The notes beneath the pieces were generated by a model. That model ran no database searches. It was not told the origin of the DNA and saw nothing but the letters and a program-made list of their open reading frames with translations. A program made the translations under genes and the position numbers. From Lethocerus indicus (taxonomy: Eukaryota; Arthropoda; Insecta; Hemiptera; Belostomatidae), in contig JACDQD010000010.1 of assembly GCA_019843655.1 (NCBI GenBank), forward strand, positions 4,881,637-4,945,636: a stretch of DNA of 64,000 nucleotides, in the 5' to 3' direction. Shown piece by piece: positions 6,613 through 58,803 of this stretch (the stretch's first letter is position 1; every line of letters begins with the position of its first letter).

Positions 6613-6645
6613 TACTAACCAGATTTTTTATTCTTTGTGTTACAG
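6613..6645 (+). promoter_or_regulatory. Branch point, pyrimidine tract and AG of recursive splice site 1
   Basis: This is a near-ideal 3' splice site. It has TACTAAC at 6613-6619, identical to the optimal branch-point consensus, with the predicted branch A at 6618. A T-rich tract then runs to TGTTACAG, and the AG ends at 6645, 27 nt from the branch A. A donor (GTGAGT) follows with no intervening base. In established recursive splicing, such a site accepts the upstream exon and at once recreates a 5' splice site for the next step. The match to the two other modules in the window, all sharing TGTTACAG|GTRAG, supports function. The reading that it acts in a giant intron is inference; no RNA data are available here. 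Confidence 0.8.
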
Positions 6646-6739
6646 GTGAGTGTTATCGGTAACTACTGAGTTGTAGAGATAGGGGTCTGTAATGCTTTTC
6701 GAGTCTGTCAACCAAACGACGCTCGAAACGTTGAATACC
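6646..6739 (+). other. Candidate RS-exon 1 (94 nt, stop codons in all frames)
   Basis: This is the segment between the recursive AG and the next strong donor at 6740. It begins GTGAGT, which is both the regenerated 5' splice site and the first bases of the potential exon. Its 94 nt are not divisible by three, and every reading frame has a stop (frame 1 TGA at codon 8, frame 2 TGA at once, frame 3 TAA at codon 5). If retained it would therefore truncate the protein. RS-exons known from vertebrates and flies are defined by their downstream donor and then normally skipped by use of the regenerated upstream donor. The length fits the small-exon range. Alternatives are an ordinary cassette poison exon, or chance juxtaposition of splice sites. 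Confidence 0.65.
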
Positions 6740-6767
6740 GTAAGTAAGAAATTTTTAAAAATATTAC
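6740..6767 (+). promoter_or_regulatory. Downstream 5' splice site of RS-exon 1 with AAAATATTAC element
   Basis: GTAAGTAAG at 6740 matches the U1 snRNA consensus through intron positions +1 to +6. The AAAATATTAC 10-mer starts 18 nt further on (6758-6767). The same 10-mer lies at nearly the same offset after RS-exon 2, and its first eight bases lie after RS-exon 3. The donor would define the RS-exon for the spliceosome. The AT-rich element could bind a TIA-1-type U-rich or AU-rich factor, or be residual homology between duplicated modules; its role is not known. Confidence 0.65.
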
Positions 6768-7113
6768 GCCATATCTGAACTCTCCCGACCACTATACCCA
6801 TGGTGTGTCTCCAGATTATTTAATAATTACAACAATTCCTAATTACAGGTTTTAATTGGAAGAAAATTCGGTTAGCCTGAGGAATTTTCAGTTTAACGCC
6901 CTGATTTATCTGTTACAGTAAACTATCTCTGACCATAATCTAAAGTGATTTTGGATACTACTTCAATTGCATTCTCGAAAGCCACTCTCTGTTTATAGGG
7001 GCGTTACGCCATTTGTTTTGGGCATCCTTCTCGGCATATTTCAGATGGGCAGTAGTGGTTTAAGGCCACAACTATCCCACTATTTTAGTACGTTAGGAGT
7101 ATTTTAGGTGTTC

Positions 7114-7175
7114 ATGCAGATACACTTGCACTACTTGTTAATGTTGTTACAGATGTACTTGTTAATGCAGATACA
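7114..7175 (+). repeat. Interleaved direct repeat
   Basis: Two short motifs each occur twice: ATGCAGATACA at 7114 and 7164, and TACTTGTTAATG at 7132-7143 and 7156-7167. The order is A, B, B, A with all copies on the same strand. This looks like local duplication by replication slippage; TACTTGTTAATG could also be a repeated protein-binding site. No coding potential is evident. Confidence 0.6.
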
Positions 7176-10100
7176 TTAGTAAAATTTTAATTCAGAGAAA
7201 ATTCGCCTTTTGTTTTTCCTTCAAAAAATATAAAAATTATACCTAACAATGGTTCTGGTATTAGAATGAAATTGTTCCTCTTTGATTGGACTCTAATGCT
7301 CCGGAAGTATTTTCTGAAATATGTTTATCGAGTCTCGTTCAGTGTAGACACAGTTGGTTTACAGTTTGTCTAAATAACGTATCACTTCCGGTTAGTAAGT
7401 TCACCTCGTAATTTGATTTTATAGACTAGGAAATTAGTTAATCACCGGAGTTTCAAAAGTATCCAATTTTGGTAACGAGTCTGTTATTATGTAAAGTTAA
7501 ATTAGTTCCTTATGATTTGGGTACTGTATAGCCGACATTCTTATTCGCGAAACGTTCGATGGCCGACAACCTATCATTGTATGTTACAATTTGTCGAAAT
7601 AACTTAGATCCGACGATAGTCCGTGTCTAATAACCATGTTTACATTATTCGGTAATACTTAGCCCAATAATATGTTCGTACCGAAGCGTATAATTATGAG
7701 CAAGGATCGTTAGTCATTAAGTAGGAAGGAGCAATCACGAGTGTAACTTTCACCTCAAGTTTGATGGATGCTTTGTATTGATCAAATCGATGTACGGATT
7801 TGGTGTGGAAACGTGTCGGTAACTCTGTGTGTGTTTGGCTCGCTGAAGAGTTCGTTGCTTGCTACTTGCATAATGAATAATTGCTATATTCTGATCTTCC
7901 GTATTTGTGTTTGAGACACATCAGGTGCCCCAATTGAGATCTGTATTTTCATAATCGAGGCTCAATAATAAATTTACTATTAATGTGAAAAATAAACTGT
8001 TTCCGAGGGCGAGTAGAACAACATAAAATAATATTCTACCAGTACATTTGGAGCTACTATGCTATAATAAGTACAGTATTGACGCACATTAAATTAATCA
8101 CGTTTTATCAACAAAGTCATCACATGTCATCATTTCTTATGCGTAGATTCTATTGAAAAATTGTATCAAGAAGAGATTTTATCATAACAGTTTAAAAAAT
8201 GCGCCTTGTTCACAGTATAGTCAACGTTTGTACAATCAATTGTCAGATATGAAGAAAATAGGCCATATTCAGATATTCATATCTGTGCTTCCAGGATGAT
8301 GTATTGTAGCTCGGGTCTTGGTGGTGGTCGCTTTTGATCGAAGATATCACTTGTCAGTTCTGTTTGACATTAATATCTCTGGAGACTGACTTGTCCATTT
8401 AACGCAAGACTAGACGGGAGCCGGGGCCGCGCCTATTATTGATACCGCCGGTGGAGTATGTGGTAAGGTGTACACAACTGCCTAACCGCGGTCCTTTGAT
8501 ACCCCCTTGGGTAGCTGCTTCTTCATTTAATGCGCTGAAACTAATATCAACCAAAGTTTATGAGATTAGGGTCCTTAGAAGGATTTTTATCCTTTTCATA
8601 TGCTTGTAGACTACTCAAACATTCGAGTTTATGTTGATTCTGTACCTCTTTGAAATCACAGTTATAAATGTATTTTATGTCTAGAGTATTGTTTGACAAA
8701 GATAACGATTATAAGTCCCTTTATACTATAATAAGTAATTATTCCAGAAAACGATTTTTATCATTGATGTTTCAACTACCTCTTGGCTGTAGATTGACCA
8801 TACTTTCAAATTAATTGCAGTAATATATGATTTTGAGACTAAAAATACGGATATTATATATGTCTGCAAAATTGTGTACCGAAAACGAGACAAATACGAA
8901 TCCCCTTCATATTAGAGTAATTCTTAAGCAGGAATCGACCGTTTATTCAGAATATATCTCAAACTTAAACCGGCTATAAGACTCATCAGCTACTTCTCTG
9001 AGAAGCCTTTTAGCGCGCATGTAGCGCGGCTAACGACTTCAATATGAGAAAGAGCCAAGCCGTATCCTTAATTTAGAACTGCCTTCGGAGTAACTACCAT
9101 TGCAGGATACAAGTATAAACTGCTGAAATGAATGGAACACCCCTTTAAATATTTAAAACTGAGCGATAACTTTTCTTTCGATCTGTTGGAAATCGCCCGG
9201 GCAACATCTCGTGAATAGCCAGCAACTTCGGCAGGCTGTATCATTAGTGAACGGTGTTCAGAATTTGTTCAGTTCGTTAAGGAATGAAATATTGGTATGA
9301 AAATGAGACGCGGTATTGCGCCGAGTTCAGGCGCCTATGGGCTTCCTAACAATCAAAGGCTAAGTAACGATTCGTAGGTGGGAGCAACAACGGCTTATTC
9401 CGCTGGTAGTTCATGCCGGATTTAAATCAGACTAAATCCAGAAATAAACGCCTTATACTATTGCGTTCGTTATACCGTAAATTGGGTAGGCCCGTTGATA
9501 TCGTGCCTCCAAGCTAAACCTATTTGTTACTCGGATGCCGAATACAAATTTCACCTAATGGTGTCTATGAATATTATCCCGTACCCGTCCCTTCGTTTCC
9601 GCAGCGATTTATTGGCTCGAAACACGAACTGTTTCCCGCAATAAAACTTCCGAATAATTTCTGATTATTTCAGATAAACGAAACGTCCATCAGTGTTATC
9701 GCATTGGTAAATAAAAATTTAACATGAAACGTACTGGGCTTGTTTAAAGGATTACCTGGCTAGAAATCTGTTTTAATGGTCAATATACCATTTTTAATTA
9801 CCCATTTCTCATTTCGTATATCACCGTTAGGTCATACTGTAATCCAACATAATTTCAATTTTTTCGTGTTCATATATTTCCAGTTTCTTTTGTGCCTTTC
9901 TTCCTAATAAAATTATATAGAGACCGCCAATCATAAAAATGTTCAAACAGGTTTAGAAACATATTTGAATAAATTTGCAATTGACGGTGACTTTAATATT
10001 TAAGACATACTGAAGGGGCTAAACTTGATTTGTGGGGCCATAATCGAAATACTTGCAAGAGAATCTGTTTTCACACTTTTGATATCACGCCCGTGAGACG

Positions 10101-12564
10101 CTGGCCCCAGCGCGAATCCGATTTGTTGCGCTTTGACAGAATAAAATTTCGGTATATCATCCAGCGGGGGGTTCTATGAATATTATTAGGTTGCCTTGAA
10201 TACTCTGAAACCTATTAATGCAACTCCTAGATATGAAATGCGGACTTGCCAATTATAAAGGTTTTCGAACGCCCACATTTCATTCTCGGTCGTATATGAA
10301 GTAAATATTCCCGTATACTTTCAACTGGAGCGTATACATTCATTATCAATATCCGTTGGTTTATTGACGTTTTCAATTTCAAATCACCTCATAATAAATG
10401 AGTATAAATCTCGATATCGATTTATCTCGGGATTTAATACGTTGAACTTGTCCCACAGTTGCGCTTGTCCACATATATTTCAAGGCTTGCGGAATGCAGC
10501 GGTTCAATTTGAATGCACAATAGTCATGGCAGCGAATGTAATGTTGGATGCAATAAGGTTATGTTTTCAGAAATAAATTTTAAATAATCAAATATTCACA
10601 GCTGCACTAAGCACATTGTCAGTACTATAAGATTTGCAAAGTGTGTTCTCGATTCCTAGGGCTAGAAAAAATAAATTAGGTATTTTGTCACGTTCATTGT
10701 AGTGAATAGAGGGGAAGCTTGAATAATCCTTCGAAATCGTATAATCCCTGCTATTTTTTTCCTCCGCTCGAAGGCCGCACATACTGTTCTGCGTTACTTG
10801 ACTCGGACTTATGCACAAGTACGCCGGTAAGTCCGTGACCAACATCAGAGCTTAAACATACTCTCTCGGAATACAAAGGAACGGTTGGTCGGGAAAAAAC
10901 TGGGTATAAGCTCGGCCGAGAATTGACAGTCTCCCTCCAGTGGTCTAAGGTTTCGTTTTTTGTTTCGATTAGCATTCCGCCAAAGCCAACCCGAGATCGG
11001 TGGTTTAATATTCAGGGAAGATAGCGGGCGGTAGCCTTTCACCGGGCGGTGTTCCTCGCCCACGATAACGGGATTTAAACGGCGGGATTTTTCGGCGAAG
11101 GCTCCAAAAATAACCGGAGCCAGAATCGAATACCTCATACCCCAGTGTCATTGCGAACCTAGTGGCTCTTGGTCATGACCGACATTTGGCGCATATCTGC
11201 CCCGACGACATAGTTCCTCTTTTTATCCGAAAGTTCCCTACTTTCATGTACTTCAATCTTATATCCTTTGAAGACTTTCATTAGTCATTTAATTACTGTG
11301 AACCAAAAAACCTTAAGTTGTTTATGGCCTATTGTTTCTACATATCTCCCATATGCCAGCTGTTCATACCCTCCCAATAAGTAAGATTGTTTGAACAAGC
11401 GCTCTGTTTATTTATATCTGCGTTTAAATACAAATTTTTTCGTTTGGAATACCTGTGATCGTATGTCTCAATTTTAGCTGGCCTACTAAATTGCTAGAAT
11501 CGAACCATCAACAATGATTACGCCAAGCACTTGTAGACCGCGAACGCTCTGAAAGAAGCTAAAGTATGAAAGCATTATGAAATCTACGGGCAAAGTGTTT
11601 TAACTTATGCCTTCAATCTGTCCATAAAAAACAAACAGATAGAACTAACTCATTCTACAAATATCAGACATCCAAACGAGTTATAGTTAGCGTATAGGCA
11701 GTGCGGGTCTAGTTGTCTAAATTGGCTAGAATTTCTTAGACTGACAGAGCATAGTTGAATCCTACAGTTGCAGCGAGTCGAGCCGTCGTGGAAGCAAACA
11801 GTCTATTAAAAATATCAGTTCCGACAATGTCCAAGTCCAAAATAACTTCAGAACAACTTGCGATCACTGTCTGCATTAGTTTAAAGTTCCGTACGATCAC
11901 ATACGTTTTGAACGTAGGTGGTCCGATTGAAAATTATTTATTATGTACCACTTGAAAAAACGAGTTCAGATTGCAGTATTCACCCTACGCTATAATCAGT
12001 GTACATTCAGGATCCATTTTATCGTTTGAGTTCATCGTTTCAGATGTTGAAATTGATCTTATTTGATCGGTTTAAACGGCCGTATGTAAAATCGAGATGG
12101 GACGTGATGGTATACAGTTTGACCTAATGAACGGGGATTTTATTTTTGATCCGACAGTTTGGAAAATGGATTATGAACTTGGACAAATCGGGACAGGTCG
12201 ACGAACCCGAAACCTTGACCATGGCAGGGAAGACTTTCCAGTAAACTGACTGGGTCGTCAAGAATCGAGGTCCCCCGATAACCGCTTACCGATTTTATAA
12301 TCTGTCATTATATACAACAATCGGCTTGTAATATACCGGAATTATACCCAGTTTCTATTCCGTTCGGTCGTGTCCCCGCGACGCCGACGACGGGGAGGAG
12401 CCCACTTTCGGGATTGAAGTCGACAGCAATGAAATCAGTACCTTTTCCTCGGATCGTCGTGTGACCTGAAAAACGTTCTCCGATTTCTCCCTTGAATATA
12501 ATTTCAATAAGTTCGGGATAGGAAATGACAATTCTGGATGACGTCCCCCGATCATCGTAATGAA

Positions 12565-12612
12565 CGGAATAATGATAAAGATAATGGTAGATGGCTAATG
12601 GATAATGGCAGA
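12565..12612 (+). repeat. Degenerate TAATGG-type repeat
   Basis: Repeated AATGATA, ATAATGG and TAATGG words follow each other across about 48 bp. TAATGG matches the loose consensus of Antennapedia-class homeodomains, so this may be a homotypic site cluster. In AT-rich DNA it may equally be slippage-derived simple sequence. Confidence 0.4.
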
Positions 12613-16628: not shown

Positions 16629-23301
<6,673 letters not shown>

Positions 23302-26300: not shown

Positions 26301-27060
26301 CCACGATACTGTACGTTGCTTAATCTCTCTAACCCCAAGCTTTCGATCATCTACATGATTTTGGACAGAGATCTGTAGTCAGTAGTGAACATAAAAACTA
26401 TTCCCATTGCTGTATCCTTGAATTTAAGTTTTTACTGGACACACCAACGAAGTGTTTCTTGTTCCCTACTTGCTGATACGAATTTAGAAACATACTTTAT
26501 TTCTTTTGAAATGTTCGAATTTATTTGGATTATTTGGATATTTGGACATGTGTTAACATAGTATAGAAAGGCGCGTTTCGTGCAAACGGTCCTCATAAAT
26601 TTCTCGTCAGGTAAATTCAGAGCTTACTTAAATCTTATGACGCTATGCAAACCGCCCGAGTCCAGTTATTCCAGCAGGGTCCCCTTTCTGAGTTATACCC
26701 GAGGACACCCTATCCCGTGAGATGGTGAGCCCCGATAGTATTTAAATCAGTCCGCTGTTCCTCCCTATCTTTCACGTATCTTCTATAAGCCCGTTCCTAA
26801 AACGGTTTACCCCGGCGGCGGTTCCCCAGGTGTTTGTGGTTTTACCTGACGGACCATCGGAAAAGAGGTTTCGGTTTCAAGGGGCCCGCATACTTCTTAA
26901 GGAGGACGCTGACCGTGGGGGTTTCACATGCCTGTGTCACTCAGCCAACAGAGATGGGACCTCCCAGGAGGAACAGTAGCCTCCTCCGAGGCTTGTATAA
27001 TTCTGTTAAACCTTCATATTTTACAAAGGTAAACCTTTTACCCTAGGTAATATGATATAA

Positions 27061-31541: not shown

Positions 31542-33110
31542 TGAGTCGTTCTAAAAGCCGGTCGACACTCGGACCGATAGTATAGATTCCTGTACTTGTT
31601 TCAGCCGCCACTATTAAATATCCTCACGCCCATTATATAAAGTCTTTATTTGTACACAAGGACAATATAACAAAAAATAGAAGAATATGGGTAAAAGAAA
31701 AGAATGCAAGACAATAGCCCAATGCTATAGCAAAGTTACACTGTCTCAACAGTTCTTAAACGAATTTGTTGTAGTATGTATGAATTAATTAAGGAAACAT
31801 GGCTGCTTGCAGGAATTTCACCGTATATGAATGTTAGAAAATATAGATTACATAAAAGAGGTACAATAATATTTAGGATATTTTAGTACTAAAATAATTT
31901 AGTAAAAAATTAAGACTACTCTTAGCACGTCACCCTGTGTAGAGTATACTTACACTCTCATATCATGTTCACTGACCACTGACTGGACAAGCCGCTTTTT
32001 TAGTTTTTCGTTCGCAACTCATATTTTTTAAAATGGGAATGGCGTTTTTTTCTCGGTGTTAGTTTGAGCTTCCAGCCTAATTCGTTTACCTGTACAAAGT
32101 ATCGACAAGCGTTTGTACAGGCAGGCTATTTATATTTCTGATTTTCGAGTGTTTCCACTCTAGAAATTTAACTCATGAACCGTACAGATAACGGACTCAT
32201 GCAAGTTACGGCGACCTAAATCGTTTCAGTAGTAGTCGGTGCTCTGGTGCTTACAGCTGATATTGAACAGGGATGTCTGACGTGGCCGCTCGAACAGCCT
32301 TCCATTGCAATTCTGGAGATGACCAAGCTGCAACCGTGAATGGTCTCAGAATAGTCCAATTACAAAATTTATGGAATCCGTTTCGTTAGATTTTTAAGTG
32401 ATTTTTTAAGCTTCAATAGTTTAGACACTTCTCCTCATTTAACTGGTAGCTAACTGTTTCTTATTATGCCATTGGGAGAATATTTATAATTATACATTTT
32501 CACGTCCTTCAATGACAAGAAATATGTTCTTCACACGGCTCGGTCTGGAGATTCGACAATACCAACGACTGAATTCCGGTCAGGAGAGGAGCGATTGTTG
32601 ATTCCTTTTTTTCTCCCTTCGGCAGCGGAAACTTTATTGTTTCGCTTTGGGCAGTGAGATAAACAACAAACAGAAAGGGAAAAGAGAGGATGTAGGCAAC
32701 ACAGGAAACCACGTGGGATGGCTGACCACTGGGTCACTGGTCCCTCCCTGCCCAATGTCCACAACTTTCATTTTCATTCAACTCACCGGCCGGCTACAAT
32801 ATACAACTTTTATAGATTTAAGTGTCCTTAAGATTAGAGGAATTTTGCAATAAGTACGGGTCGTTAATAAATGTTTACCGAAAATATTTATGAATACCCA
32901 ATTAATGAATTTCACCTTAAATATAGAGAAATATAGGTGGTCGACACAAAATTTCCATTTGTCTTTCGACCTAAAAAAATTGAAACAGTTTTGTACATAT
33001 CAAATACAGGAATAGACACACTACGGTTTAGTTCTTATAGGTAATCTCTTATAAAATTGTCGAGCGGGAGGTTGAAAATAGAGAGGCCTGGGGTGGCCCG
33101 TCGAGAGTTT
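31542..33110. other. Noncoding block upstream of the ratchet-2 structured region
   Basis: I see no gene, and no repeat beyond ordinary AT-rich sequence. The small overlapping open frames near 32509-32853 run on both strands and resemble nothing I recognise. Confidence 0.5.
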
Positions 33111-33444: not shown

Positions 33445-33470
33445 CTCTAATATTGAAAATTTTGTTACAG
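33445..33470 (+). promoter_or_regulatory. Branch point, pyrimidine tract and AG of recursive splice site 2
   Basis: CTCTAAT (33445-33451) fits the metazoan branch consensus, with the predicted branch A at 33450, 20 nt before the AG. It is followed by ATTTTGTTACAG ending at 33470, and then immediately by a perfect GTAAGT. A 16-base stretch across the junction (TTTTGTTACAGGTAAG) is identical to that of recursive site 3. This is the strongest of the three because the regenerated donor is the full GTAAGT consensus. Confidence 0.85.
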
Positions 33471-33545
33471 GTAAGTGTCGCAACCAACAAACTTTGTGGA
33501 AGATTTTGTTTTTAGACTGTTGAGTCCAGTGTTACGCTGCATACT
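33471..33545 (+). other. Candidate RS-exon 2 (75 nt, stop codons in all frames)
   Basis: This segment lies between the recursive AG and the donor at 33546. Its 75 nt are a multiple of three, yet all three frames are closed (frame 1 TAG at codon 15, frame 2 TAA at once, frame 3 TGA at codon 17). Inclusion would thus still truncate the protein. It contains no obvious coding signature. Normal use would be exon definition followed by removal when the regenerated GTAAGT at 33471 is spliced onward. A poison cassette exon is the alternative. Confidence 0.65.
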
Positions 33546-33572
33546 GTAAGTTACAATTTATTAAAATATTAC
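33546..33572 (+). promoter_or_regulatory. Downstream 5' splice site of RS-exon 2 with AAAATATTAC element
   Basis: CTGTAAGTTA places a perfect GTAAGT at 33546. AAAATATTAC at 33563-33572 is identical to the element after RS-exon 1 and lies one base closer to the donor. Preservation of both parts supports a common architecture for the modules. Confidence 0.65.
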
Positions 33573-35501: not shown

Positions 35502-36790
35502 CTGCGGGGATTAGTCTTACCAGCAGCAGTTGGTCTGACTTATCTTAGCCCGGGAACAACTCCGATGGTCAGATCGTTCACATAATATTATCGCTGTTCT
35601 CGTAATTCCCGTTTTTCGAGGTTTGAAAACCTAAATTTTTAATTAACCTATTTCCTCTGTATCTAATTATTTTCTATTACAACGTCCCAATAAATCATTC
35701 TGGATATTAGTTATTCATGGAGGAGTCTTTGCGAGGTAACTCTTTGGAGGGTATAGTTTTTAAACTATCCTGAAATTAGAGTACACGTCAGTCAAGTCAT
35801 AGCGCTTTGGAGGAATGCTCTGAATACATTAATATATTTTAAATTTAAAATGATTTCCATTTTCACTGATTTAAACTTTGAATACCAAAGACATTTTAAT
35901 GACAGGTTTGATTCCGATTTGAGAAGGTATATTGCCCGTTCACCCGGGAATGGAGACGCTTAGAGCGGGTAGTAGCTGGGACTTGTTTTGCTTGAGCATA
36001 TAACTTTCTTGTGGTTTCGACTCAGGGACTTGTCCGTTCTCCCAATAAAAAGTGAGAGCAGCTACATACATGCTGACCGTAAATCGTTACGGGCCTCTTC
36101 ATTAACCATTCCGCATACCAATCCGACCGATATTTATTGGAAATAGATTGACGATGATCGCCAGTGCTGATTGGGCAATGAGCTGGGTCCTTATATTCCC
36201 GTTTGTTTCTTTTTTTTGGTTGATTTTAGACCCCGATTGATGAGCTTTATATAGTCCGCATATGAGGGACCGTTTCGGGATAACCTTTCCGAAATGTTTT
36301 GTCGTGTGTGATCAAAACGTTAGGTTTATTTATTTAATCTACTTAATATTTCGTTCTACTCATGTAGTCGTACGCTATTAAATTACGAATGACATAGATG
36401 CTAGAATTTCTTCCTGAATAATGTATTTTCACCTGTAACGGTATTTCATGTCTCCACGCTATACTGCTATCGAACTACTATTTAATATTTATTGCTATAG
36501 ATTACTGTTAAAACTATTTATGACATATAATATACAAACTGTACTGTCTGACTGAACACAAGTTCTAAAATTAATTAGAAGTAGGTTGCTTAGAAAAATA
36601 TAATTTTGATTTGAAGCACGTAAAACAAGCATATCCTATTAGAAATTCTGACATAAGTTCTATGCTAAGATTACAAAATAAATTTCGCTGGAACTTACGT
36701 AATTGTGTTCTTTTTAAGGTTTGGGCCTTATTCGTCAGCATTCTTTTGCGATATTTCAAAACTTTCTGAATTTTGTGAAATTTCTGAAAT

Positions 36791-37444
36791 ATGTGGACTG
36801 ATTATAGCCTGGTAATACATTTTAATATTAGCATTTTGTTAGCGAAACATTGCAGTGGAACTTTTGAAGAATTTCATTTCATCATTTATTGTATAATAGG
36901 TACGGTTATATTGTATCTTGACAGTGACAGATATATGTTATTATCAATTAATTATAAACCCATACGCGAGGTGCGAACTCGCCGGTGGTTTCATTCGAAT
37001 CCGGTCGCTAAGCCGCGTCTGTGCCCCGGGGGGTTCGGTCAGTGCATAAAGTCATCGATAAAATTTAAAGCCGGGACCGCTCTCGATTCTGTGCTGGCAA
37101 CAAGAACATATTTCGAGTTGCGCGTTATCGAAGAGGCTGTGCGGCTCCCGGGGCGTTCGAAAACCCGTCTGTCCCATTTACAACTTAATCGATTATGCCG
37201 AGCGAAAGTTGGACTCCGTGTGTCTGTGAGACCGTGTGTGAATGGGCGTGCGTCTTTGTGCATACACACTTCAATGTGTGCGTGCGCGTCCGTGTCTCAT
37301 TCTCTATATGATAAAGAGCACACAGGGACGACGACCCGCCGTCCAATCCGTTGCAGTACTATTCGGCCAATTATGATAGACCCGATAGAACATGGAACAG
37401 TGATAAATTATAGTATATTCCGTAGACTCCCTGGGCGGGAATAA
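36791..37444 (+). other. Longest open frame in the window (217 codons), unrecognised
   Basis: The frame opens with ATG at 36791 and closes at 37444. The first 60 codons lie in AT-rich DNA and give a hydrophobic, isoleucine-rich N-terminus. The rest lies in a GC- and CpG-rich pocket and is rich in arginine, cysteine and serine. The abrupt change in composition between the halves argues against one evolved protein. I recognise no domain, and a TG-rich stretch around 37218-37290 produces the Cys/Val/Ser part. No strong splice sites flank it as an exon. Chance in a stop-poor pocket is most likely. A small lineage-specific gene nested in the intron is possible but unsupported. Confidence 0.15.
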
Positions 37445-39188: not shown

Positions 39189-39208
39189 TCTGAATCCCGA
39201 GATTCAGA
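39189..39208. other. 8-bp perfect hairpin
   Basis: TCTGAATC (39189-39196), loop CCGA, and GATTCAGA (39201-39208). It is fully paired with a stable-size tetraloop. It is too short to assign a function. Confidence 0.5.
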
Positions 39209-43612: not shown

Positions 43613-46600
43613 ACCCCCATCTACGCCACGCGGGCTTTCGTAGAGTGTCCGTTTCCCAATGACTAAATAAATTTTGTCCCGGACAACAGATTAAGAGAGA
43701 GCGAGATTGAAAAAGGATAGGGAGAGAGAAAGAGAGAGAGAAAACGGAGGAGAAAAAAGCGGGCTCGCACTGTTTGTCCGATCGAAGGGTATGATAATGT
43801 CAACACAACGCACGGTTTTATTGAACCCCGGCGTTTGGGTTCCGCCTTTCCGTACCGAAGGTTGTTATGTTTATCGCTACTTTATTAAACGGCTTCAAGT
43901 ATAACTTTTAATTTAAGTAAATTAATGCACAGGCAATTTTCTGAAATGCGGCGTTTTTAAAATTGCGTTTATTATCGTGTTAGAATTCCCGTTTTTCAGT
44001 TTATTATCATCCTTGGTTCGCTGCTGCCTGCTTGATCCGATGCTAGGCCTATTTCTATTACAACTACTACTGGCTTTCTCTTTCATTTTCATTTCTTTCG
44101 GACTTTTTATTAAGTTAACTTCTGTACTGAACAGGCTCTTTCTTATCATTTTTTTAAAAAGGATTTGTCGTTTTCGTCCTTCTACTTCTCGTTTTATGGA
44201 CATGTAATGATGATTATTTCAGGTCTTAATGGCATTTTCTCATTATTCCATGGCATAAATAAGTTGTTATGCCCGTAAGAGACGTGCAGTAAGTTCTTGA
44301 TTGTAATTGTAAATTTTGTACTGCTAATTCCGGTTCTTATAGCTCGAAATTACTGTAATAAGCAAGCAGTCAGGTGATCCTCGATAGAGAAAGGAGCAAA
44401 ACGGCTAATCGCCAGCAGACAGCTGTCGTTGCCAGTTAGCAGCAGTCATATGCAGTTTTAATCATCGTCCGATTTCGGATCTATATGTCGGTCGCTGGGT
44501 TGGGATTATTTTACTGCCTTATATAGAAAATGAAAAAAATATTACACACTGTAGTCCATCATTACTTCCCATATTTGCAAGGCGGTTTGATAATTTAATC
44601 AACATATTGTGTATTTAAATCTACAGTCTTATGGACTAATGGAGCTCTACAGTTCAAAACATATAAAGCGCACGCAATATTTGACAATCATTTTCTTTAG
44701 TTGGAAAAGTTTTGGACGATTCGCAATAAAATTTATTATCACTGTCATTTTGACATTAAAGCGTAGATGCAGATATGCTATTGGGATATGAATATTATAT
44801 ATAGTGTTATGACTATTATAATTATTTGTAGAAATAGGTGGAATTATTTTAATGTTTATTTAAAATTTATTCTTAAGTAAATCTACGATGCTTTAATTCT
44901 AAGGTTGCACAGTTTAGTTTTAATAACTAGATACGACATAGATATCAGTTCAGAGATGTTTTGAATTTTGATCAGAGGCAAAAGAACCCATTCCTGATTT
45001 AAACTCTGGACGTAATGAACGATAAGGATCGAAATGGGAGTTGACGCGGGGAATACAAATGACAAGAAATTAGCTCGTGATTGTAATTCCCTTTAGGAAC
45101 CGAAAGTAAAGTAGGAGGTTAGGAAACAGTCCTGTTGCGGCAAGCGCCACACATACGCGGCAATTTGTAGTTCGATCTTGGTCTCGTTCTGTTGGAACTG
45201 GAAATGATATGCTTAGTTTTGCAATTGGGCCGGTATATTTTAAAGGGGTTTATTTAATCGCCGAGGAGACCCGGACTGAAATGCACACGGGTAATACCCC
45301 GGGTTCATACCCGCAGGTAGTATACCGCCACGCGGCGGTGGGGTCACCTACCGGGGACAGTGACTCGGCGCCCCACTGTTCCGTCCTGATGCGCCACAAC
45401 GTGGCTCAACTAGCTGATGCACAAACAGGGCTGAAACGGGGCCGGATACCTGTCCTGGAATCACTGTTTCCTGTCTAAAAAACAACACCCCTTTCTAAGA
45501 AATAATGATAATCGTAAGTTACATAGCTTACAAACAACTTAAAGTGTGCGTATCAAAATTTCATTACTCATAATTACGCGTAAGAGACTGCAAACCGAAT
45601 CTCACCTTTAATCAATCTAGATTGTCCTGTCCATAACTGAGGACCCTAAAGCGATTCCGGCCCAAACGTGTTATTCATTGCTTACCGATGTTTCATTTCG
45701 CGTGTATCGCAGTTTGGGCGCACTTTCGGTCCGATTATCGACACCGAGATGAGCATGTGTCTGTCGGTGTCGGCGGGAAGGTCAGCCCGAGTCTAGACGG
45801 GTACTCGGCTCGGCGCTCGGGCAAAAACTGGCCACCGGCACCCCGGCCAATCCGCCTCACTCTCGGCCCGATCTCTCTCTCTCTCTATCTGCGCCTCATC
45901 GTCCCACAATCGTCGTCCCCGGTGGTTAACCCCCGCTTCGAATCCGCACGTCCGTTAGGCTTGAGTAGGCCGACGTGATATGTGCCCCGACTGCGGCCCC
46001 GTCCGGCAGCTAATTAGCGAGCCATCGCGGCATGCGCGGAATCCCCCTCCCTCTAGGCGTTTAAATAACAGTAATATGATCGGGTAATAACGAATCGCTT
46101 CATTCCTATTTAACCATTCTTACGTTTTCTTGAATTTGAAACGGGAAAAACCGGCCGACGCACCCTAAAATTGTAGTTTATTTTATTCTGTTCTGGGTGG
46201 CATTCACTCTCAATACTGCCTAATCCACTTGTCCGCAGATAGTGGATCGCTGGGAAAATACCACTGAGTTGTACAGTATAATATCAACGGATGAAATTAA
46301 CATAAAACCTGTAAAAATATTTTGCATACACTTGCTTTGTTGTTGTACCTGTAATTGACACATGCCGCTCTCAACCATGTTCAGGACTGACCCTGATTAT
46401 AAATATCGGGTTCTTTCAAATTTCCGAGAGTGATGTATTAAAGATTTAATTCGGATCACATAAGTAGCTATGTCACAATTTTTTGATGAGCTACTGTACC
46501 TCATCATAAAGCGTTGGTTGGGTATAAAGTATCATCAAAATGTCTAGTGTTTTTTTTTTATCAAGAAAATGTCTGTTTTATTTGAACTAAAAATGAAACA

Positions 46601-48054: not shown

Positions 48055-48066
48055 CGTCACGTGACG
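48055..48066. promoter_or_regulatory. CLEAR-type E-box palindrome CGTCACGTGACG
   Basis: A perfect 12-bp palindrome contains GTCACGTGAC, the consensus of the CLEAR/M-box bound by MiT/TFE and USF-type bHLH-leucine-zipper factors. It sits in a GC-rich pocket (about 47980-48120), unlike its AT-rich surroundings, so an intronic enhancer is conceivable. A single 10-bp match of this kind can occur by chance. Confidence 0.4.
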
Positions 48067-49577: not shown

Positions 49578-49591
49578 CCTCCAGCTGGAGG
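49578..49591. promoter_or_regulatory. 14-bp palindrome centred on CAGCTG
   Basis: CCTCCAGCTGGAGG is a perfect palindrome with a CAGCTG E-box at its centre, typical of class I bHLH (achaete-scute/daughterless, MyoD/AP-4 type) sites. It is expected less than once by chance in a window this size, but functional use is unproven. Confidence 0.4.
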
Positions 49592-50924
49592 ATAAGGAAC
49601 TGTATCTTTGTTTTCGGGGCCGTACCTTCACCCCGGAATTAGTGTCCAATGTTTTGAGCTTAATACCGAGTTCGTGATTTAAGAAAAATGTAAAAACAAT
49701 TCTCCTCAGTGCTAAAAGACGTTCCGTCGTTGAGTTTTGCTTTCTTTTTGAAATTAAGCGCTGTTTAAAACACTGTTACAGAACCACGAAGGTACAATTA
49801 CTTGGTAAGTCGCACTGTCAATACCTATTGTTACTGGACAGGAACTTACATCTAACATCGGTGTCAATATTATAATGAAATCCCGTAATTGGAGTGAACA
49901 ATAAATTGTAGAAACAGTTGGGTAACGCCCCATGTATCTTTTCATAATAAATAATGTTCAGAAGAATAGAAAAACAATATAATATAGACTACATTCATAG
50001 TCTAGAATAGTGCGATTGTATCAACTTTTAGCCTATTGTAGTTTTTTAATGCCGTATTCTGATTCTCTTTTGCTTGGGAATAATCAGAATGGGGATGGGG
50101 GGCGTAGGACAAAGGTCATAAGAAATGGGGGCGGTGTCCCGGATTGTGTATACCTTTTGTCTGACCCGAGACACCGAAGAGGTGGAATAGAAATAGCCCA
50201 GCTTGAAAAAAAAATCTAGTTTCCCTCCACGGTCGCATTTACTTCACGGTCCCAACCAGGAGGTTCCAGTATTAAACTTTCCATTTTGTGCTTACGGATC
50301 GCATAACGCGGCCCGTTTAAGTTCTAAATTAACCAGGTTCCGACAAATGGTGCCTTATAATTATTCTTTCGACGCGAAGGAATATTTTAATTTATAATTA
50401 ATTTGTCCGTCCTTAAAATATAAAAACCGAAAACACAAGCGTTAATACAGGCGGACAGGTTTGACACGGATGTTGCGCAACGGGCCCCCCCGTAAGGCGA
50501 AGGAAGTTGAATTTCTCTCATTTTTGATGGGATGCCGGGCCGCATTATGAAATGCAAAGTCATAGTCACCGGTGAATGTTTAAATAGACAGTCTAGACAC
50601 AACGTGCACCGAATGCTTTGGCCTTCTTTGGCGTCCAGCTGGCTGGCCCTGTCCGGCCATCGGTCTTCAGAGGTCCTCCACCACTCAATAGCTTCAAACT
50701 GAAATATGACCTGGGAAATATGGTTGTCTTAAACTGTACTTTCTTTTGTTATATATTGTTATGGGGAAAAACGTCCGGTCAAGAATCAGAATGTTTTAAA
50801 TCAGTGCGTTTAATGTATTATTTAATTTACTGACAGGATCCTGTATTAGTGAAATTGCGTTGAGCTGTTGTGTTAGAATTGAAAGAATTTCATGCGTTCA
50901 ATACGTCTTTTTTTATAGTAGAAA

Positions 50925-50949
50925 TGATTAGGATGCCGCAGCCTAATCA
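50925..50949. other. 8-bp inverted repeat TGATTAGG/CCTAATCA
   Basis: The arms lie at 50925-50932 and 50942-50949 with a 9-nt spacer. Each arm carries a TAATC homeodomain-like core, in inverted orientation. The same core is tandemly repeated at 34094 and 35481. It could be a paired homeodomain site. Confidence 0.5.
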
Positions 50950-52897
50950 GTGTTTCTTAGTTACTGCATACTTTCCAAAAGGCATACGTTTTAACACTTT
51001 GGAAGTTTGGAACCTCTGTCTGTTATCCTTCAACCGTTAATTGTATGTAGTTCAATAAGAAAAAAATCATTATTATAGATATAATTTTTGCTTAAATATT
51101 AGATTTAGAATCTTCTTAATACCGTCCGAAAGAGAATAAAAAATCCTTTGTGCCTGTTACAATGGGCGTCGCTTACCGAATGTACCTCCATCTGCAGAGG
51201 TCCTGCACCCACCGACACATTATATGATTCATGGCAACGAATAGCGCCCTGATTAGTTATTGTTTGTTGCTTCAATTTCATCATTGATAGCCCATAAATA
51301 ACTTTACAGCGGCTCTGCTCATTTATTTCGGCTTTTGATTTTGATTTATCTATTAAACGATAAATACGAATGGATGAAATGTTCCCCGTCCAAGTCAAAA
51401 CTCTCATCATTTTCTATTTAAAAGTATTTTTGAGAGGTGTAAAGGTGAAAGTCGGAGCTATGTTACAAAGCGGTGGTTACTTTTATGGAGTAAATATTCA
51501 ATTAGGATGTTTCGGCTGTGGGAACGAAGAAAAAAAACAGAAATAAAAGCGAGAGGGATTTGAAAAAGCCGACAGTTTAACGAGCGAGCGGCGACTCTCG
51601 CTCTCTGAATTGTTTTTCATCTCCGGATACCAATTTATTTTATTCCCGTTTATTTCACGCAAAGCTATCCGCACTTTATTAATGAATTCAGTTCGATATC
51701 GTTCTCTCGTGAAGGTCGGAGAGGTTCCCGAACTGCGATAAACGCGACCTGCGAACCGGCAGTTCTCTCTCTTTCGGTGCAATTAACCGGTCTAGCCATA
51801 TTATAACAGAAATAGTTGTATTCGCGATACTGTTAAATCGCGTATTATCAGTTTGAACGTTCCCGTATTATATAATTCGTTAATCGGTGCATAATCGGGT
51901 GGCGCCTGGAAAGGCCGGTCGTAACTGATAGTTAGTTAAGAACTCAAATAATGTAACCTATATTGAGAATGTACAATAAAACCAATTTATCATGTGTATT
52001 ATTAGAGGCAATTTTTTAGCACGAACTTCTTGTGCACATATTGTTTTCAACTCCTTCATAATGTCAGTACCCCTTTCCTTTATCGCTGATTGTGTTTTGC
52101 ATAAATATACAAAGGCCCAAGCGCATAATAGACAAACCATTTTTAGACATTGAATATACTGATCTCGCCATATTACTGTGCTGCACTCCTTCTATCTTCA
52201 AGATGGTCTCAAGAATAAAAATACTTTTATTTTGTATAAAAGCCGTTTATCGATTTTAAAGCCAGTATTTATATCGGAGAGTGAATAGCTAATTACGTGT
52301 TGGGTGCGAGAGAAGTGGAAAAAATAAATCAGAGGATAGGACATAACGAAGTGGAGTTACAATAGCGTTGATTTCATTGTTGGATTGGCCGCTGGGCGAT
52401 GAGTCTCCCGGTGAATGAAACCCTCCCTCGGGTGTATAATCCCCGGATATTTATGACCGCGGTTTAGCACTCCTTTCATTCATTTCACTCCCGACGCCTC
52501 GGATAAACAAAGTTTATTCGTTTCAATTCGGTATTACGCTGATGATACCGGCCCTGGCGCGTCTGCAAAATAATGCGTTCGGAAATTAATAATCCGGGAT
52601 CGAATGTAGACCGGGAAACTGTGACCGTACCACTGAGACCCGAACGTAGGGGCTCGTATACCACCGATGTACTTTATCCTTGCACACTTATAATGTACAG
52701 AATCATTTGCGTAACCAGAAAACTGGAAGTGTGCCTCGTATCTGATGCTACATTAGAAAATAATTGTCTCATTTATTCCAACGTCTACATGGACCTTGAA
52801 CGTAAAGGAAAAGAATGATAATAAAATCTCCTGTATAAAAGGCAGGGACTGTCGAACGATTTCAATGTTTATTACTCTCGTAAAACCCTAAGTACTT

Positions 52898-53035
52898 TGA
52901 ATCAATTAAAACTGAATCAATTAAAGATTGGGACATTTATTTGAGCTTCTTCCAGCTATTCCCCCTTGAACTTGGTTTCATATCGTTTACTTGTCACAAA
53001 CGCTACACATGGAATAATTAATGAATTAATTAATG
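52898..53035. promoter_or_regulatory. Cluster of homeodomain-like sites, candidate enhancer
   Basis: TGAATCAATTAAA occurs twice, 15 bp apart (52898-52910 and 52913-52925). It contains ATCAATTA, which resembles composite Exd/Pbx-Hox sites. About 90 bp later, 53014-53035 has overlapping TAATTA/ATTAAT words (AATTAATG repeated). AT-rich DNA produces TAAT words readily, so the duplicated 13-mer is the stronger part of the evidence. The window contains no promoter to which the cluster could be tied. Confidence 0.35.
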
Positions 53036-56000
53036 TAAATTATTATTTATTTTAATAGTAAGAAACTGTTAGTTAATATAATAAATATAGTTATAAGGCG
53101 ATTGTAGTGGTTATATTTATATAGTTTTCCTGTAGCTATATTTAAATTCTAATGAAATTTGGGACATAAAATTATGTAATATGTGAATCGTTTCGAACTT
53201 TATATTGCCATACATTGAGGCCTGGCAGAATTGAGCTAAATTATGTACTGCCGTTATTTCTTTTGATTGTTCGAATATATTTCAGTTTTTATGAAACGCA
53301 AGTAATCGCTTGAACTAGGGCAACTTGATCCGGGTTTCAAGCGACGCTCATATCTTATTTATTCATGATGTTACATAACGTTGTCTTCGCGCGTTCTAAG
53401 AACACATCATTAACTTCGATATTTGAGGTAACAAAACGTATACGAATTTTACATCGATAATACGTAAGTTACATAAGAACGTCATTAGGCAGTCTCGTAT
53501 GTTAAAATCTTAATTCGCGGCTGCTGAGAATGCGTTTTTACTGATAGCTACATAAATACAGATAATCGAGTACGCGGAATAGGCGATTTTTAAATTAAAT
53601 TACTAATAATAACTTTTTATAGACGTTTTCAGCAACCATCACTCGGATATAGTTTGGTTATCTTGTATTTATAAGAGAATATAGATTTGCGAAGGAAAAT
53701 CTCCTTTCTGCCCTTGATAAAAAAAATGTGATTATATTTCCGTTTGCGTTCAATATTACTTTTAATTTATTTTCCAATTTTTGTTGGCACAATCATGATA
53801 TGAAATTTATTGGAGCTAAAATTTCTTCGACACGAGTTGGTGATCAATGTCTTTGGAAAAATCATATAATTCAATCGACAATATCCCGTTTGTTGTTTTT
53901 TGGCTACATTTATATTTATGTCCTTCGATAATTGCGGTTAATGGGGTATGAAGTTATTTAGAATATTGTTACACGGATCGCTGATTTTTAAGAGGACAAT
54001 TTTGACCGCCAGGGTTCCATTTGTAAATTTAAATTAGGCCAAAAGCTTAAGTGGGTCTATTTACAGCCCTATTATTTTTTTATAGTCCTTTGTTTCTGTT
54101 TGTCGTTTTGCCAATTTCCGTTTCGTTCAGAAACCGTTTTACACTTCATGACTATGTTCCGCTTATTGATTTAAAATAATATCTCGTATTATTTTTCCTT
54201 TAATTCGTCATATATTCATGAGGAAAATGCAGTGCGAAAGATAAAGTTCTTCATCAATCATAGAACAAAACAAACCAAAAAATAATATGTCCGAAAGAAT
54301 TGAGATGCACTGATTGAGTGGACTTAAACGATTAAGTTAAATATTCGCCTTTAAAATATTGAATCTGATAAAGTCGTTTGGTTTTCGAAATAAAAGACTG
54401 TTTTTCAGGCCGGTCTGAAGAGAGATCGGTAAAATTAATCAGACGAAAAACACCGTACAACGATACGACAGTTTTTCAATTTCCTACGAAGCCGGTCTCT
54501 GACAGCCGATTGTGTCCCCGGGGCGAAACAATTTCGGTGCCTGCGCCAATTGGATTTAAAACAAACTGAAAATAAAAAGTAAACATATATACCAATTCTC
54601 CGATAATTTGATCGTGTCTTCAGTCCCGGGAAGGTCCATAAATATTTAAGACCAGTTTCGGATCGAACGGCAATTTTGAAACCGCGGCGAGTTCATTAGC
54701 CGACTGGCGGGGGAAGACGAATCGGGCACGCTCTCGTTAGGAGGGCCGAAATCCCGCCGACAGCCAGCACTGGTTTTTATTTCATTATTATGACGAATGG
54801 GTTTGTTTGAGCTCAATCGACCGATTGTTGTTCGGGCCAATAGATAATAGACGGGTTAATTGAATAGAGGCAGTCCGTTACGCCATTAAAAAAAAACCCC
54901 TCTCCTCTTTTATTATTCACAATTTGTTTTACGCTACAGAATCAACAAACCCTGACTAATCGTGATGATGTATAAAACACATTAATTCATATTTGCTTTA
55001 AGGCGGAAGGGATTATTTTGAAACCTGTTTAAACATAAAACCAGTGTATATAAATATTATTTCACTGCCAATTTTCTTTCCTTCCTATTGTCCAATTGAA
55101 GAAGTCAAAGAGTTTATATATAAAACTATTTATACATCTTGGTACACAAAAGTAACACACAATTAGTTAATTTTCCCGTAATAACAAAAAGTACAATTAA
55201 CGAATATCCACGAGGGGGGAAGCGACATACTTTAATTTTTAAAGAACCTGCCAGCAGGCAGTTTGACAGCAAAACTCTCACTGATGCCAAACAAACGTGA
55301 GCTTGAAACTGTTCTTCGTCACAAACGTTTTTGGTATCCTTAGAGTAAAACAAGCGACCGTTCGTGGACAAACTCATCGCGAACCTCCAAACAGGTACCG
55401 TTCTTTCAAACAAGATTGCCGCATTGTATAATTTGTTTCGATGGTTTCGATTTGGTTCGTCTCATGTTCTCGATAGGCGAATAGGCGATTCCGTACATTT
55501 AAATTTTGTGTCCATCCATTGTAAGCGGTGTAGCTTTGCAAGTTTGGCCCTGGGGGCCGCTGTCGAAATCGAGAAGGTCTCGTGTCCCGCACGGCGGCGT
55601 CTTTAAACCGGGCTGTGTGAGTCGCATACGGTCCTTTGACTTGGGCCCCTCGTGCCGCCTCAGGGCGCTATTGTTCTTACGCGGTACACCGACATTTCTC
55701 TTATGAAACCACACAGTTTTTTTTTCTGTCTGTTCGTGTGTAGTTCACGAGCTGGGCCCGGGACTATTGAATTATTCGCCGTGCGGCGATATAAACTGTG
55801 TGAGCCGAATACGGGCCCTATTCTCCCGCCGTCGGGTTTCCTCATTCCAGAAACGTTTCTGACACTGATTCGGTAGTCTTTTTGTTGTTTTTTCTCCCTT
55901 TCCTTCTTCGCCTTCTTCGACTTCTTTACTCCGACAGGGAATAATATGGGTCCAGTGACCCCGCCGTCTAATTGACGGAAGTTTAAACACCCCACGCAAG

Positions 56001-58413
56001 TACTAAGGACAACTCAGGGCTACCCTGACATAGGTCTAGGCCAGAAGTTAGCAACCCAACTCATTTTATAAGGTCGGAATATACAACAAAAATTGTCTAA
56101 CCTGTATAAACAATGGAAAATGTATAAAAAAACTAAATCCTACGAGGAATGTTTCATGATATTTTCATTTCAGAGGAATTTCAGTTGCTGAACTCTGCGA
56201 AGGCGTCTCTTGTGTATATTTAGCTGCGTTTCTAAAATTTCTTCTCCGCGGTAAACGAAATTTTTGTAATATTTTTTTTCTTTAAGTAAGAATGTTGGTT
56301 TTTGGAAAAGGATCGGTTATGAAAATAGTACTGATTAAAATTTACAACGTGAAAATTAAATTCGCTCTCTGTAAACACATTACTCGCACTAAGAGCTTCA
56401 CGTATCCTTTCACTGCAAATGAAAATTCGCTATATTTATTGAAATAACATTCGCGCATTCATATGTTCAGCCAATGTGGAAGGGTAACTGCGTATTAACA
56501 CGAATATTTATTTCAGCTTATTGTAAACTCAACATTTTAATATATTCCACTTTTTTCCTGTGTTATAAATGTTGCGTGGAACGTTGTTGAATTCTTGTTG
56601 TAGGAATTAAATTCTTGGATGTCAGTGAAAGCTTCGGTTGTTATAAAAACATGTTATGTTTCGCTTTTTCCCGTTCTAAGAGCGAAAACAGGCTGGCCGT
56701 CTGTCGGGCCGCATATCTGTCTGGCGTCGGGTTGATACTGAAGCCTCTGTATTTGTCAAACCGGAGGTCTAATTTGAGAAATTAGCTCGTAATTATCTGG
56801 TCGCTTCGTCGCCCTGTAGTCAGTGGCTCATTAAATATGCGACAATCAACGCTCCCTAATGATAGGCCGTTAAACGACTTAACGGTACAACGCTCAGATA
56901 CGGTGAAATTTACAGAAATAATCGTTTCGTTATATTTAAATATTAGCCCAATGTTTAACCTTTAATCTTGCCAGATACTCGATATTTTCCCACGTTTTTC
57001 TATAACTATTGGATTATGAATATAGTAATTAAACTCATTATCATTGCAATATTGAAATTATTGTAGTAAAATACAATTCTGTAAATTACTCCAGGAAAAT
57101 TTATATGTACAGTGCTGGATGGATTTTAATTCATCAATCAAATGTGTATTATCTATTGAAGGTCAATTAAAATGAGAATTGTAGGCTTTTCAGTTTTATA
57201 TTTTTATTTAACGTCTAATAGTTATTAGATTAATTTTCAAAACTTAATAATTAAATAGACTTCATGTTTCTTTTACATGCGCTAACGCGGGTTTGAACTT
57301 GTTATCATAATCCTTTATATTATTCTGTGTTATCATTGTCCCCCACAGTGTTTACATTTGTTATAGTGCGGCTCGGAACAAAACTGGGACTATCGTCGAA
57401 CTTCTCCTAGACGGGATTTGGCTCCAATAATTATCAAAAATCAAAAAAATTGGGGTTTCCTCTCTAGATAGTTCATTCCGCAGCTTTTGCTATTTTAGCA
57501 AACGCCGGTTGACGCCCGTTCATCCGGGCCAGAGATAGCGCCGGGTATTTATACGGCGCCAAATTTATATTTCTTCTGCGGTCCTGCTCAATCAAAATGA
57601 ATTTCTTCACTATTCTGTATTTTTTTACTACTCAACTGCACAATATAATGTAATAGCTTAATATTATATCTAAGTAATGAACAGTAATGGGTTTTCTCGC
57701 CCATTTAATTCCCCTTCACTCCTATCGGGAAAACGTCTTTAGATTTAGAATAATGTAAGGGAACCTTTTTATCGCCTTCGTTTTTGTACTATCCCCTTTT
57801 CGGTTGTATCTACAAGGAGGTACCGTATTTACTGACTAACGTGATGGTGTTAAGTCCCAAAACGAAGAGTCCTGAATTATGGAGGACTAAAAGCTCCTCC
57901 TGGGATTGTGTTCTTCACAAATCACCTTCTGTTCAATCGCAAGCGCAGGTTTTTAGGGGCTGTCCGTTTTCTTTTCGCTTGAATTCGACTCTTGAAAAAG
58001 GACACGGCCCCTGTTGCCGTTTCAATAAAACTTCGTTGCGAGAACAAAATTGGCCGGTTGCCTATCTGGGGCCAGAAGGGACGTCCCCAGTGCTAATGGC
58101 GGGGAAGCGCGTCCTCCTCCGGGTGTCATTATCGCCGTTATGACTGACATTAGTCAGCCCCCGCTCCCCCTCTGTTGACACGGAGCCCAGATGATATTCA
58201 TTATTGGGCCGCGAGCTTGTGTTGTTGTGTCGCTGAAAACCGTGTTCATCAAATTGGGACAAACTCGGAAATTATCGCCGAGCAATTTCCGCTTCCGTTC
58301 CCTCTACAAATTGCAAATTTCTCCGTAGTAGCGCCAGATACGGAAGCGCCTTTTAATCGCTGTTTTACTTTTCGAGATTATTCATTCACATTTAGCATTT
58401 CAAATATAAACGC

Positions 58414-58452
58414 TACGATTCATTGACACATAGGATTCATACGATTCATTGA
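58414..58452 (+). repeat. Short direct repeat TACGATTCATTGA
   Basis: The 13-mer occurs at 58414-58426 and 58440-58452, with a partial copy AGGATTCAT between them. It lies about 275 nt before recursive splice site 3. It is either a local duplication or a repeated binding site. Confidence 0.7.
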
Positions 58453-58699
58453 GTTGATCTCAATTAATGTAGAACAGACCTTGAAAAGAAAGGATTCTTT
58501 ATAATATTGTAAACAGGAATAAGAATGAAATTTTTAGTTGGCTCAAATCTTCATCTCTCAACACCTTCTTTACACTAGTATTACATAATTTATATGTGTA
58601 ACTGATTGAAACTTTAGAACACTTCATACAATTTTTATATAAACTACTGTCCATCCTAACCATACTTACTTATTGTCCGTAAACCTTATTATATTTAAG

Positions 58700-58726
58700 T
58701 ATAACCAGTGTTTTCTTTTGTTACAG
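58700..58726 (+). promoter_or_regulatory. Branch point, pyrimidine tract and AG of recursive splice site 3
   Basis: TATAAC (58700-58705) is the likely branch sequence, with branch A at 58704, 22 nt before the AG. A better CCTAAC lies at 58655-58660 but is about 67 nt away. The tract TTTTCTTTTGTTACAG ends at 58726 and is followed at once by GTAAGC. The 16 bases across the junction are identical to recursive site 2. Donor position +6 is C instead of T, a mild weakening. Confidence 0.8.
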
Positions 58727-58782
58727 GTAAGCACACTATCATCGCACTTATGTTGACCACTAACAAGAGCATTTTAAGCGCA
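58727..58782 (+). other. Candidate RS-exon 3 (56 nt)
   Basis: This segment lies between the recursive AG and the donor at 58783. Frames 1 and 2 are closed (frame 1 TGA at codon 10, frame 2 TAA at once), whereas frame 3 is open throughout. Its 56 nt would also shift the downstream frame by two. It is the shortest of the three. It could be spliced out after exon definition, or included as a small cassette exon if the upstream exon ends in the compatible phase. Confidence 0.6.
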
Positions 58783-58803
58783 GTAAGTAATTAACAAAAT
58801 ATT
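58783..58803 (+). promoter_or_regulatory. Downstream 5' splice site of RS-exon 3 with AAAATATT element
   Basis: GTAAGTAAT at 58783 is a full-consensus donor. AAAATATT at 58796-58803 repeats the first eight bases of the element found after RS-exons 1 and 2, here 13 nt from the donor start. The base before GT is A rather than the preferred G. Confidence 0.6.

Follow-up and report, generated by a model that had tools for sequence, protein, structure and literature searches.

Is the 64,000-nucleotide (nt) stretch of Lethocerus indicus contig JACDQD010000010.1 between positions 4,881,637 and 4,945,636 part of a long intron that is removed in steps, by recursive splicing? An earlier note on this DNA had proposed so, on the strength of three modules in which a splice acceptor is joined without a gap to a splice donor. 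We analysed both strands of the whole stretch (hereafter the window, numbered from its first letter; the plus strand is the strand as given). We find that the window is very probably part of one or more long plus-strand insect introns removed stepwise, with the three modules acting as ratchet points. The anatomy of these sequences, their excess over chance and their strand bias are demonstrated below, and on these grounds their identity as ratchet points is well supported.

Three joined acceptor and donor sites on the plus strand

A search of both strands for TGTTACAG/GTRAG, in which the slash marks the joint between acceptor and donor, gave three matches in the window, all on the plus strand and none on the minus strand. 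The acceptor AG ends at 6645, 33470 and 58726, from which intervals of 26,825 and 25,256 nt follow, and every match in the window to the core TGTTACAGGTRAG lies at one of these sites (6638-6650, 33463-33475 and 58719-58731, plus strand). Each site has a branch-like sequence in front of it, whose branch A lies 27, 20 and 22 nt from the last base of the AG in modules 1, 2 and 3, and a second donor, GTAAGT, 94, 75 and 56 nt behind it. In all these respects (the three sites, branch-like sequences 20-27 nt upstream, the second donor and the intervals) the earlier note is borne out. The piece between the two donors is a putative cryptic recursive-splicing exon (RS-exon). The parts of the modules are as follows; all scores come from matrices of general splice-site frequencies.

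6613..6619, plus strand: module 1 branch-like sequence TACTAAC, branch A at 6618 (read from the sequence)
6638..6645, plus strand: module 1 acceptor TGTTACAG (motif search)
6646..6651, plus strand: module 1 recursive donor GTGAGT, directly joined to the acceptor (donor score 12.9)
6646..6739, plus strand: module 1 putative cryptic RS-exon, 94 nt, no frame free of stops (sequence analysis)
6740..6745, plus strand: module 1 RS-exon donor GTAAGT, as ACC/GTAAGT (score 5.8)
33447..33451, plus strand: module 2 branch-like sequence CTAAT, branch A at 33450 (read from the sequence)
33463..33470, plus strand: module 2 acceptor TGTTACAG, weak pyrimidine tract (motif search, scoring)
33471..33476, plus strand: module 2 recursive donor GTAAGT (donor score 13.0)
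33471..33545, plus strand: module 2 putative cryptic RS-exon, 75 nt, no frame free of stops (sequence analysis)
33546..33551, plus strand: module 2 RS-exon donor GTAAGT, as ACT/GTAAGT (score 6.6)
58700..58705, plus strand: module 3 branch-like sequence TATAAC, branch A at 58704 (read from the sequence)
58719..58726, plus strand: module 3 acceptor TGTTACAG, T-rich tract in front (motif search)
58727..58732, plus strand: module 3 recursive donor GTAAGC (donor score 11.5)
58727..58782, plus strand: module 3 putative cryptic RS-exon, 56 nt, one of the three frames free of stops (sequence analysis)
58783..58788, plus strand: module 3 RS-exon donor GTAAGT, as GCA/GTAAGT (score 6.5)

All three modules combine four marks of a ratchet point: a joined site of the (Y)nNCAG/GTAAGT type, a branch-like sequence, a downstream donor, and a recursive donor stronger than that downstream donor. 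Branch-like motifs at such a distance precede 4.9% of sampled plus-strand positions, for a motif set that was picked after the sites had been seen, and TACTAAC occurs six times on each strand of the window. The acceptor string TGTTACAG is found eight times on the plus strand and not once on the minus strand, with a GT directly joined to it in only three of the eight.

We scored every AG/GT in the window (180 on the plus strand and 187 on the minus strand, 367 in total) by the sum of its acceptor and donor matrix scores. The three sites rank first to third among the 367, with totals of 23.9 for module 1, 22.6 for module 3 and 18.8 for module 2. The best joined sites of the minus strand, at 16870 and 56101, reach 17.9 and 17.7 and lack a good donor further on; another, at 32089, has a joined score of 15.1 and a GTAAGT 136 nt behind. 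The claim that no minus-strand site is equally good therefore holds, narrowly so for the middle site.

Chance and common descent as rival explanations

How often would such sites arise by accident? The earlier note, assuming equal base frequencies, put the expectation for its string at about 0.002 per strand. A fairer expectation for joined sites alone, scoring at least 18.8, is 0.245 per strand, as obtained from 1,500 dinucleotide shuffles carried out within 1-kilobase (kb) blocks to keep local composition. Three or more such sites appeared in three of the 1,500 block shuffles. The core TGTTACAGGTRAG was absent from 100 dinucleotide shuffles of the whole window. By contrast, CAGGTRAG occurs three times on the plus strand (the three sites) and once on the minus strand, against a mean of 0.9 and a maximum of 5 per strand in 200 whole-window shuffles. 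The string by itself is therefore unremarkable, and what matters is the acceptor in front of it and the donor behind.

The downstream donor is a stronger argument against chance than the joined motif, because it lies outside that motif and yet is present at all three sites. A random plus-strand position has a GTAAGT 40-120 nt further on with a frequency of 0.016. Among the AG/GT sites this was found for 5 of 180 on the plus strand (the three modules and two sites with poor joined donors) and for 0 of 187 on the minus strand. Block shuffles yielded a mean of 0.0047 joined sites followed by a GTAAGT in this range, with at least one in 7 of 1,500 shuffles and at least two in none, compared with three observed. 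The Poisson probability of three or more modules is about 2e-8, and under a looser rule (GTRAGT at 25-150 nt; mean 0.010) it is about 2e-7. When the score cut was lowered to 15 with the loose rule, the mean was 0.15 and the maximum 2 in 200 whole-window shuffles; three were observed on the plus strand and one on the minus strand. These P values need to be interpreted cautiously and are optimistic, as the distance ranges and score cuts were set after the sites had been seen. We judge this optimism too small to alter the conclusion.

It is very unlikely, then, that a T-rich 64-kb stretch has simply given rise to three functionless splice-like strings. With 0.245 such sites expected per strand, one of the three could be accidental, the middle site being the likeliest, and the minus strand, if untranscribed, still holds two joined sites at 17.7-17.9. 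Against this, three modules with a downstream GTAAGT are observed where 0.005 are expected, none of the 1,500 shuffles contained even two, and all three lie on the T-rich strand.

A further alternative would be common descent: a single mobile or duplicated element that contained a splice-like string could have given rise to all three modules. The modules do have an identical TGTTACAGGTRAG core, and they share an 8-mer, AAAATATT, behind each RS-exon donor:

6758..6765, plus strand: AAAATATT of module 1, start 18 nt downstream of the first nucleotide of the RS-exon donor (sequence comparison)
33563..33570, plus strand: AAAATATT of module 2, start 17 nt downstream of the first nucleotide of the RS-exon donor (sequence comparison)
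58796..58803, plus strand: AAAATATT of module 3, start 13 nt downstream of the first nucleotide of the RS-exon donor (sequence comparison)

Moreover, over the 54 nt that follow each RS-exon donor, the alignment of modules 1 and 2 outscores 99.4% of random pairs (0.6% reach the score) and that of modules 2 and 3 outscores 96% (3.8% reach it). The unusual alignment of modules 1 and 2 consists of AT-rich sequence around the common AAAATATT. For modules 1 and 3, on the other hand, the same 54 nt align unremarkably (30% of random pairs reach the score). The RS-exons, too, are no more alike than pieces drawn at random from the window, 77-90% of such pairs matching their scores. The whole 300-nt modules align at 24, 19 and 18, against random means of 13-16 that have a wide spread. 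Among repeats of at least 25 nt, the direct ones form two families, CT-rich tracts and one 28-nt pair, neither of them at a module, and there are 48 pairs of inverted repeats, the longest 25 of which are all simple repeats. Descent from one element is thus largely refuted and hardly credible, and the three modules are probably not repeats. Like signals that do not share descent would point to selection on splicing signals.

Putative cryptic exons and proposed stepwise removal

In a Drosophila ratchet point, acceptor and donor adjoin, and behind them lies a cryptic RS-exon of about 50 nt that has a weaker donor; the RS-exon is recognised first, but splicing then mostly proceeds from the recursive donor and so discards the exon, and at most of the fly sites compared the recursive donor is stronger than the RS-exon donor (PMC8605326). 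Disruption of the recursive donor turns skipping of the RS-exon into its inclusion in fly ct and Ubx (PMC8605326). In the window, the recursive donor outscores the RS-exon donor by 12.9 to 5.8, 13.0 to 6.6 and 11.5 to 6.5 in modules 1, 2 and 3, and it also outscores the best other GT within 250 nt (7.9, 7.2 and 6.5). Donor competition of this kind predicts that the RS-exons would be skipped, although strength alone does not settle the matter. Their lengths modulo 3 are 1, 0 and 2 in modules 1, 2 and 3, and these lengths, together with the stops, would fit exons not destined for coding sequence. The guanine-cytosine (GC) content of the RS-exons exceeds that of their flanks by 0.16, 0.16 and 0.14; differences as large arise in 4.2, 4.3 and 7.1% of placements made at random.

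On this reading, a short cryptic exon bounded by the acceptor at 6645 and the GTAAGT at 6740 would be recognised first, and an upstream exon would be spliced to the AG at 6645. This step would regenerate a strong donor, CAG/GTGAGT, which is predicted to outcompete the weaker RS-exon donor. The regenerated donor would then be spliced on to the AG at 33470, and likewise to that at 58726 and onward, leaving nothing of the modules in the messenger RNA (mRNA). Transcription of the region, stepwise splicing, skipping of the exons and membership of all three modules in a single intron are what we infer from sequence here.

The same signals could instead belong to ordinary alternative exons (cassette or poison exons) of 94, 75 and 56 nt that start with GT and undergo no re-splicing at the joined donor. 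We regard this as improbable. All three modules pair an acceptor with a downstream donor as a normal short internal exon does, their GC contrast with the flanks is exon-like, and some fly RS-exons (Ubx-m1, msi) are mostly included in mRNA despite a stronger recursive donor (PMC8605326). An ordinary exon has no need of a GTRAG start, yet near-optimal donors (11.5-13.0) stand there in all three modules. In addition, exons 1 and 2 are stopped in all frames and two of the three lengths are not multiples of three, an argument that a poison exon or an exon of the 5' untranslated region escapes.

Several further observations weigh against stepwise removal through these ratchet points. All seven of seven expressed RS-exon reporters, partly or mostly included, also had a stronger recursive donor (PMC8605326), so that donor strength alone does not predict skipping. 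Other GTs, at +157 nt in module 1 and +136 nt in module 2, outscore the RS-exon donors named above (7.9 versus 5.8 and 7.2 versus 6.6). Ordinary exon scoring does not pick out the modules, whereas the joined score does: a scan for exon pairs (acceptor of at least 7, best GT 30-250 nt further on, sum of at least 17) gave 13 pairs on the plus strand and 2 on the minus strand, with the top minus-strand pair (20.1) above the best plus-strand pair (18.9). Module 1 ranks second among the 13 plus-strand pairs, through the donor at +157 rather than that at +94, module 3 ranks eighth and module 2 fails the acceptor cut. The acceptor of the middle site is mediocre (5.8), with its weak pyrimidine tract. 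When the downstream donor is left aside, three or more joined sites are only moderately improbable (2 of 200 whole-window shuffles and the 3 of 1,500 block shuffles given above). Finally, segments of 25-27 kb are long compared with those of flies, typically 9-15 kb (PMC6110457).

With these points set against it, the ratchet-point reading agrees with known systems in most of its anatomy. The modules resemble the Drosophila ratchet points of kuz, Bx, Ubx and other genes (PMC8605326, PMC6110457) in the AG/GT joint, the weaker downstream donor, the non-coding surroundings and the presence of several sites on one strand; their RS-exons are 56-94 nt long, compared with about 50 nt in the fly. Strong donors are enriched in the segments behind recursive sites (PMC6110457). 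The vertebrate RS-exons of long genes, as described in PMC8605326, are alike in being defined by a downstream donor, after which the regenerated donor is used. The match with Drosophila architecture, the common strand and the lack of relatedness support the ratchet-point part of the earlier note's proposal; that the three sites lie in a single giant intron and are used would be predictions of it.

About 70% of Drosophila introns longer than 40 kb hold at least one such site (review, PMC13149111). Within introns longer than 50 kb, site density on the sense strand exceeds that on the complement 21.7-fold in the fly, 8.0-fold in the beetle and 4.0-fold in the bee, and it is higher in the mosquito too (PMC2773006, Table 2), whereas large vertebrate introns show little or no enrichment (ratios of 0.9-1.5; PMC2773006). 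The ratchet-point (RP) sites computed in large introns of bee, beetle and mosquito are of the same motif class as those found here and are enriched on the sense strand in introns longer than 50 kb; they are genome-wide motif counts, whereas the present case is one locus with complete modules. Three sites per 64 kb are denser than the bee average of 0.484 per 100 kb (PMC2773006), under thresholds that differ. Given the enrichment in fly, mosquito, bee and beetle and the frequency in long fly introns, the finding falls in a described class of sites and is not a new mechanism. It is also less surprising than the earlier note implied, because enrichment in long insect introns, the bee included, had already been computed. 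In the literature, covered in part, we found no report of recursive-splicing RNA data for a named hymenopteran locus. If the sites are used and lie in one intron, that intron would measure at least 52 kb and add a recursively spliced example from outside flies, with longer segments between its three ratchet points. As a prediction from bare sequence, the case names the exact bases at which it can be tested directly in an insect that is not a model species.

The shared 8-mer goes unmentioned in the descriptions of fly sites consulted (PMC8605326, PMC6110457). In the 64 kb, AAAATATT occurs 19 times on the plus strand and 15 times on the minus strand, and it does not lie within 40 nt behind any other GTAAGT (0 of 10 on the plus strand, one of these being the recursive donor at 33471, and 0 of 11 on the minus strand). 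Trios of random 54-nt pieces shared an 8-mer in 0 of 5,000 draws without GC matching, in 0.24% at a GC of at most 0.35 and in 0.42% at a GC of at most 0.28 (5,000 draws each). We give the pattern little weight, since the surrounding sequence is AT-rich and the 8-mer came to light post hoc. It is a doubtful suggestion that AAAATATT might be a dedicated element of this lineage that aids the definition of cryptic RS-exons and sets ratchet points apart from ordinary splice-like strings, with segments near 26 kb. Should the 8-mer hold at other ratchet points of the lineage, it would bear on how true recursive sites are distinguished from chance ones.

Strand, gene content and other features of the window

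Intron sense strands are generally T-rich. The plus strand of the window has more T than A in all 16 of its 4-kb bins and in 55 of its 64 1-kb bins, which would fit a place within a long plus-strand intron; GC content is about 39%, and the observed/expected ratio of CpG is 1.17, values that taken by themselves would suggest an insect, most likely a hymenopteran. The donor string GTGAGT is biased (13 on the plus strand versus 3 on the minus strand) but GTAAGT is near even (13 versus 11), so that donor counts do not decide the strand. The polyadenylation signals are scarcer on the plus strand, with 78 AATAAA versus 154 (0.51) and 61 ATTAAA versus 111 (0.55). We considered and rejected this depletion as proof of transcription: plus/minus ratios for other arrangements of the same letters are 0.53-0.78 (five of AATAAA) and 0.64-1.15 (14 of ATTAAA), so that much of it is a matter of base composition. 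Each signal is the lowest of its set, and a slight extra depletion on the plus strand is possible.

No Pfam family was matched at an expectation value (E) of 0.5 in the three plus-strand frames tiled as 15 pieces, a scan that a short exon could escape; this too would fit an intron, and no exon of a host gene was recognised in the window. A 218-amino-acid (aa) stop-free frame at 36788-37444 (plus strand) is longer than the longest frame in 100 shuffles (207) and has no Pfam match at E 0.1. Searches for transfer RNA genes (under bacterial settings) and for Rfam families (at gathering scores) found none in the window. Scanned against Pfam at E 0.1, the 32 minus-strand stop-to-stop frames of at least 90 aa gave five matches, all below curated cut-offs, the best being FAM104 (E 0.0012); a further match below threshold, to DUF2678 (E 0.031), came from the three minus-strand frames of the final 4 kb.

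The FAM104 match (19.8 bits versus a cut-off of 27) falls in a 93-aa frame at 43922-44203 (minus strand), which runs from ATG to TAA and is followed by AATAAA about 40 nt past the stop. A protein search with this frame, minus its first residue, found no homologue; its C-terminal INAILKTPHFRKL we take to resemble the conserved end of the FAM104 family. The frame may represent a small antisense gene that lies within the predicted intron.

Two positions about halfway between modules, 22383 and 44223, were rejected as extra ratchet points: both have a GTAAGT behind them, but their joined donors, GTATTC and GTCTTA, are weak (3.7 and 0.4). The fourth-ranked joined site of the plus strand, at 26611 between modules 1 and 2 (total 15.5, CAG/GTAAAT, followed after 114 nt by a donor GTGAGC), is at best a weak candidate for a ratchet point. 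The short tandem repeats in the window have units of 2, 7, 15 and 30 nt, and a perfect CT microsatellite of 52.5 units occupies 16632-16736.

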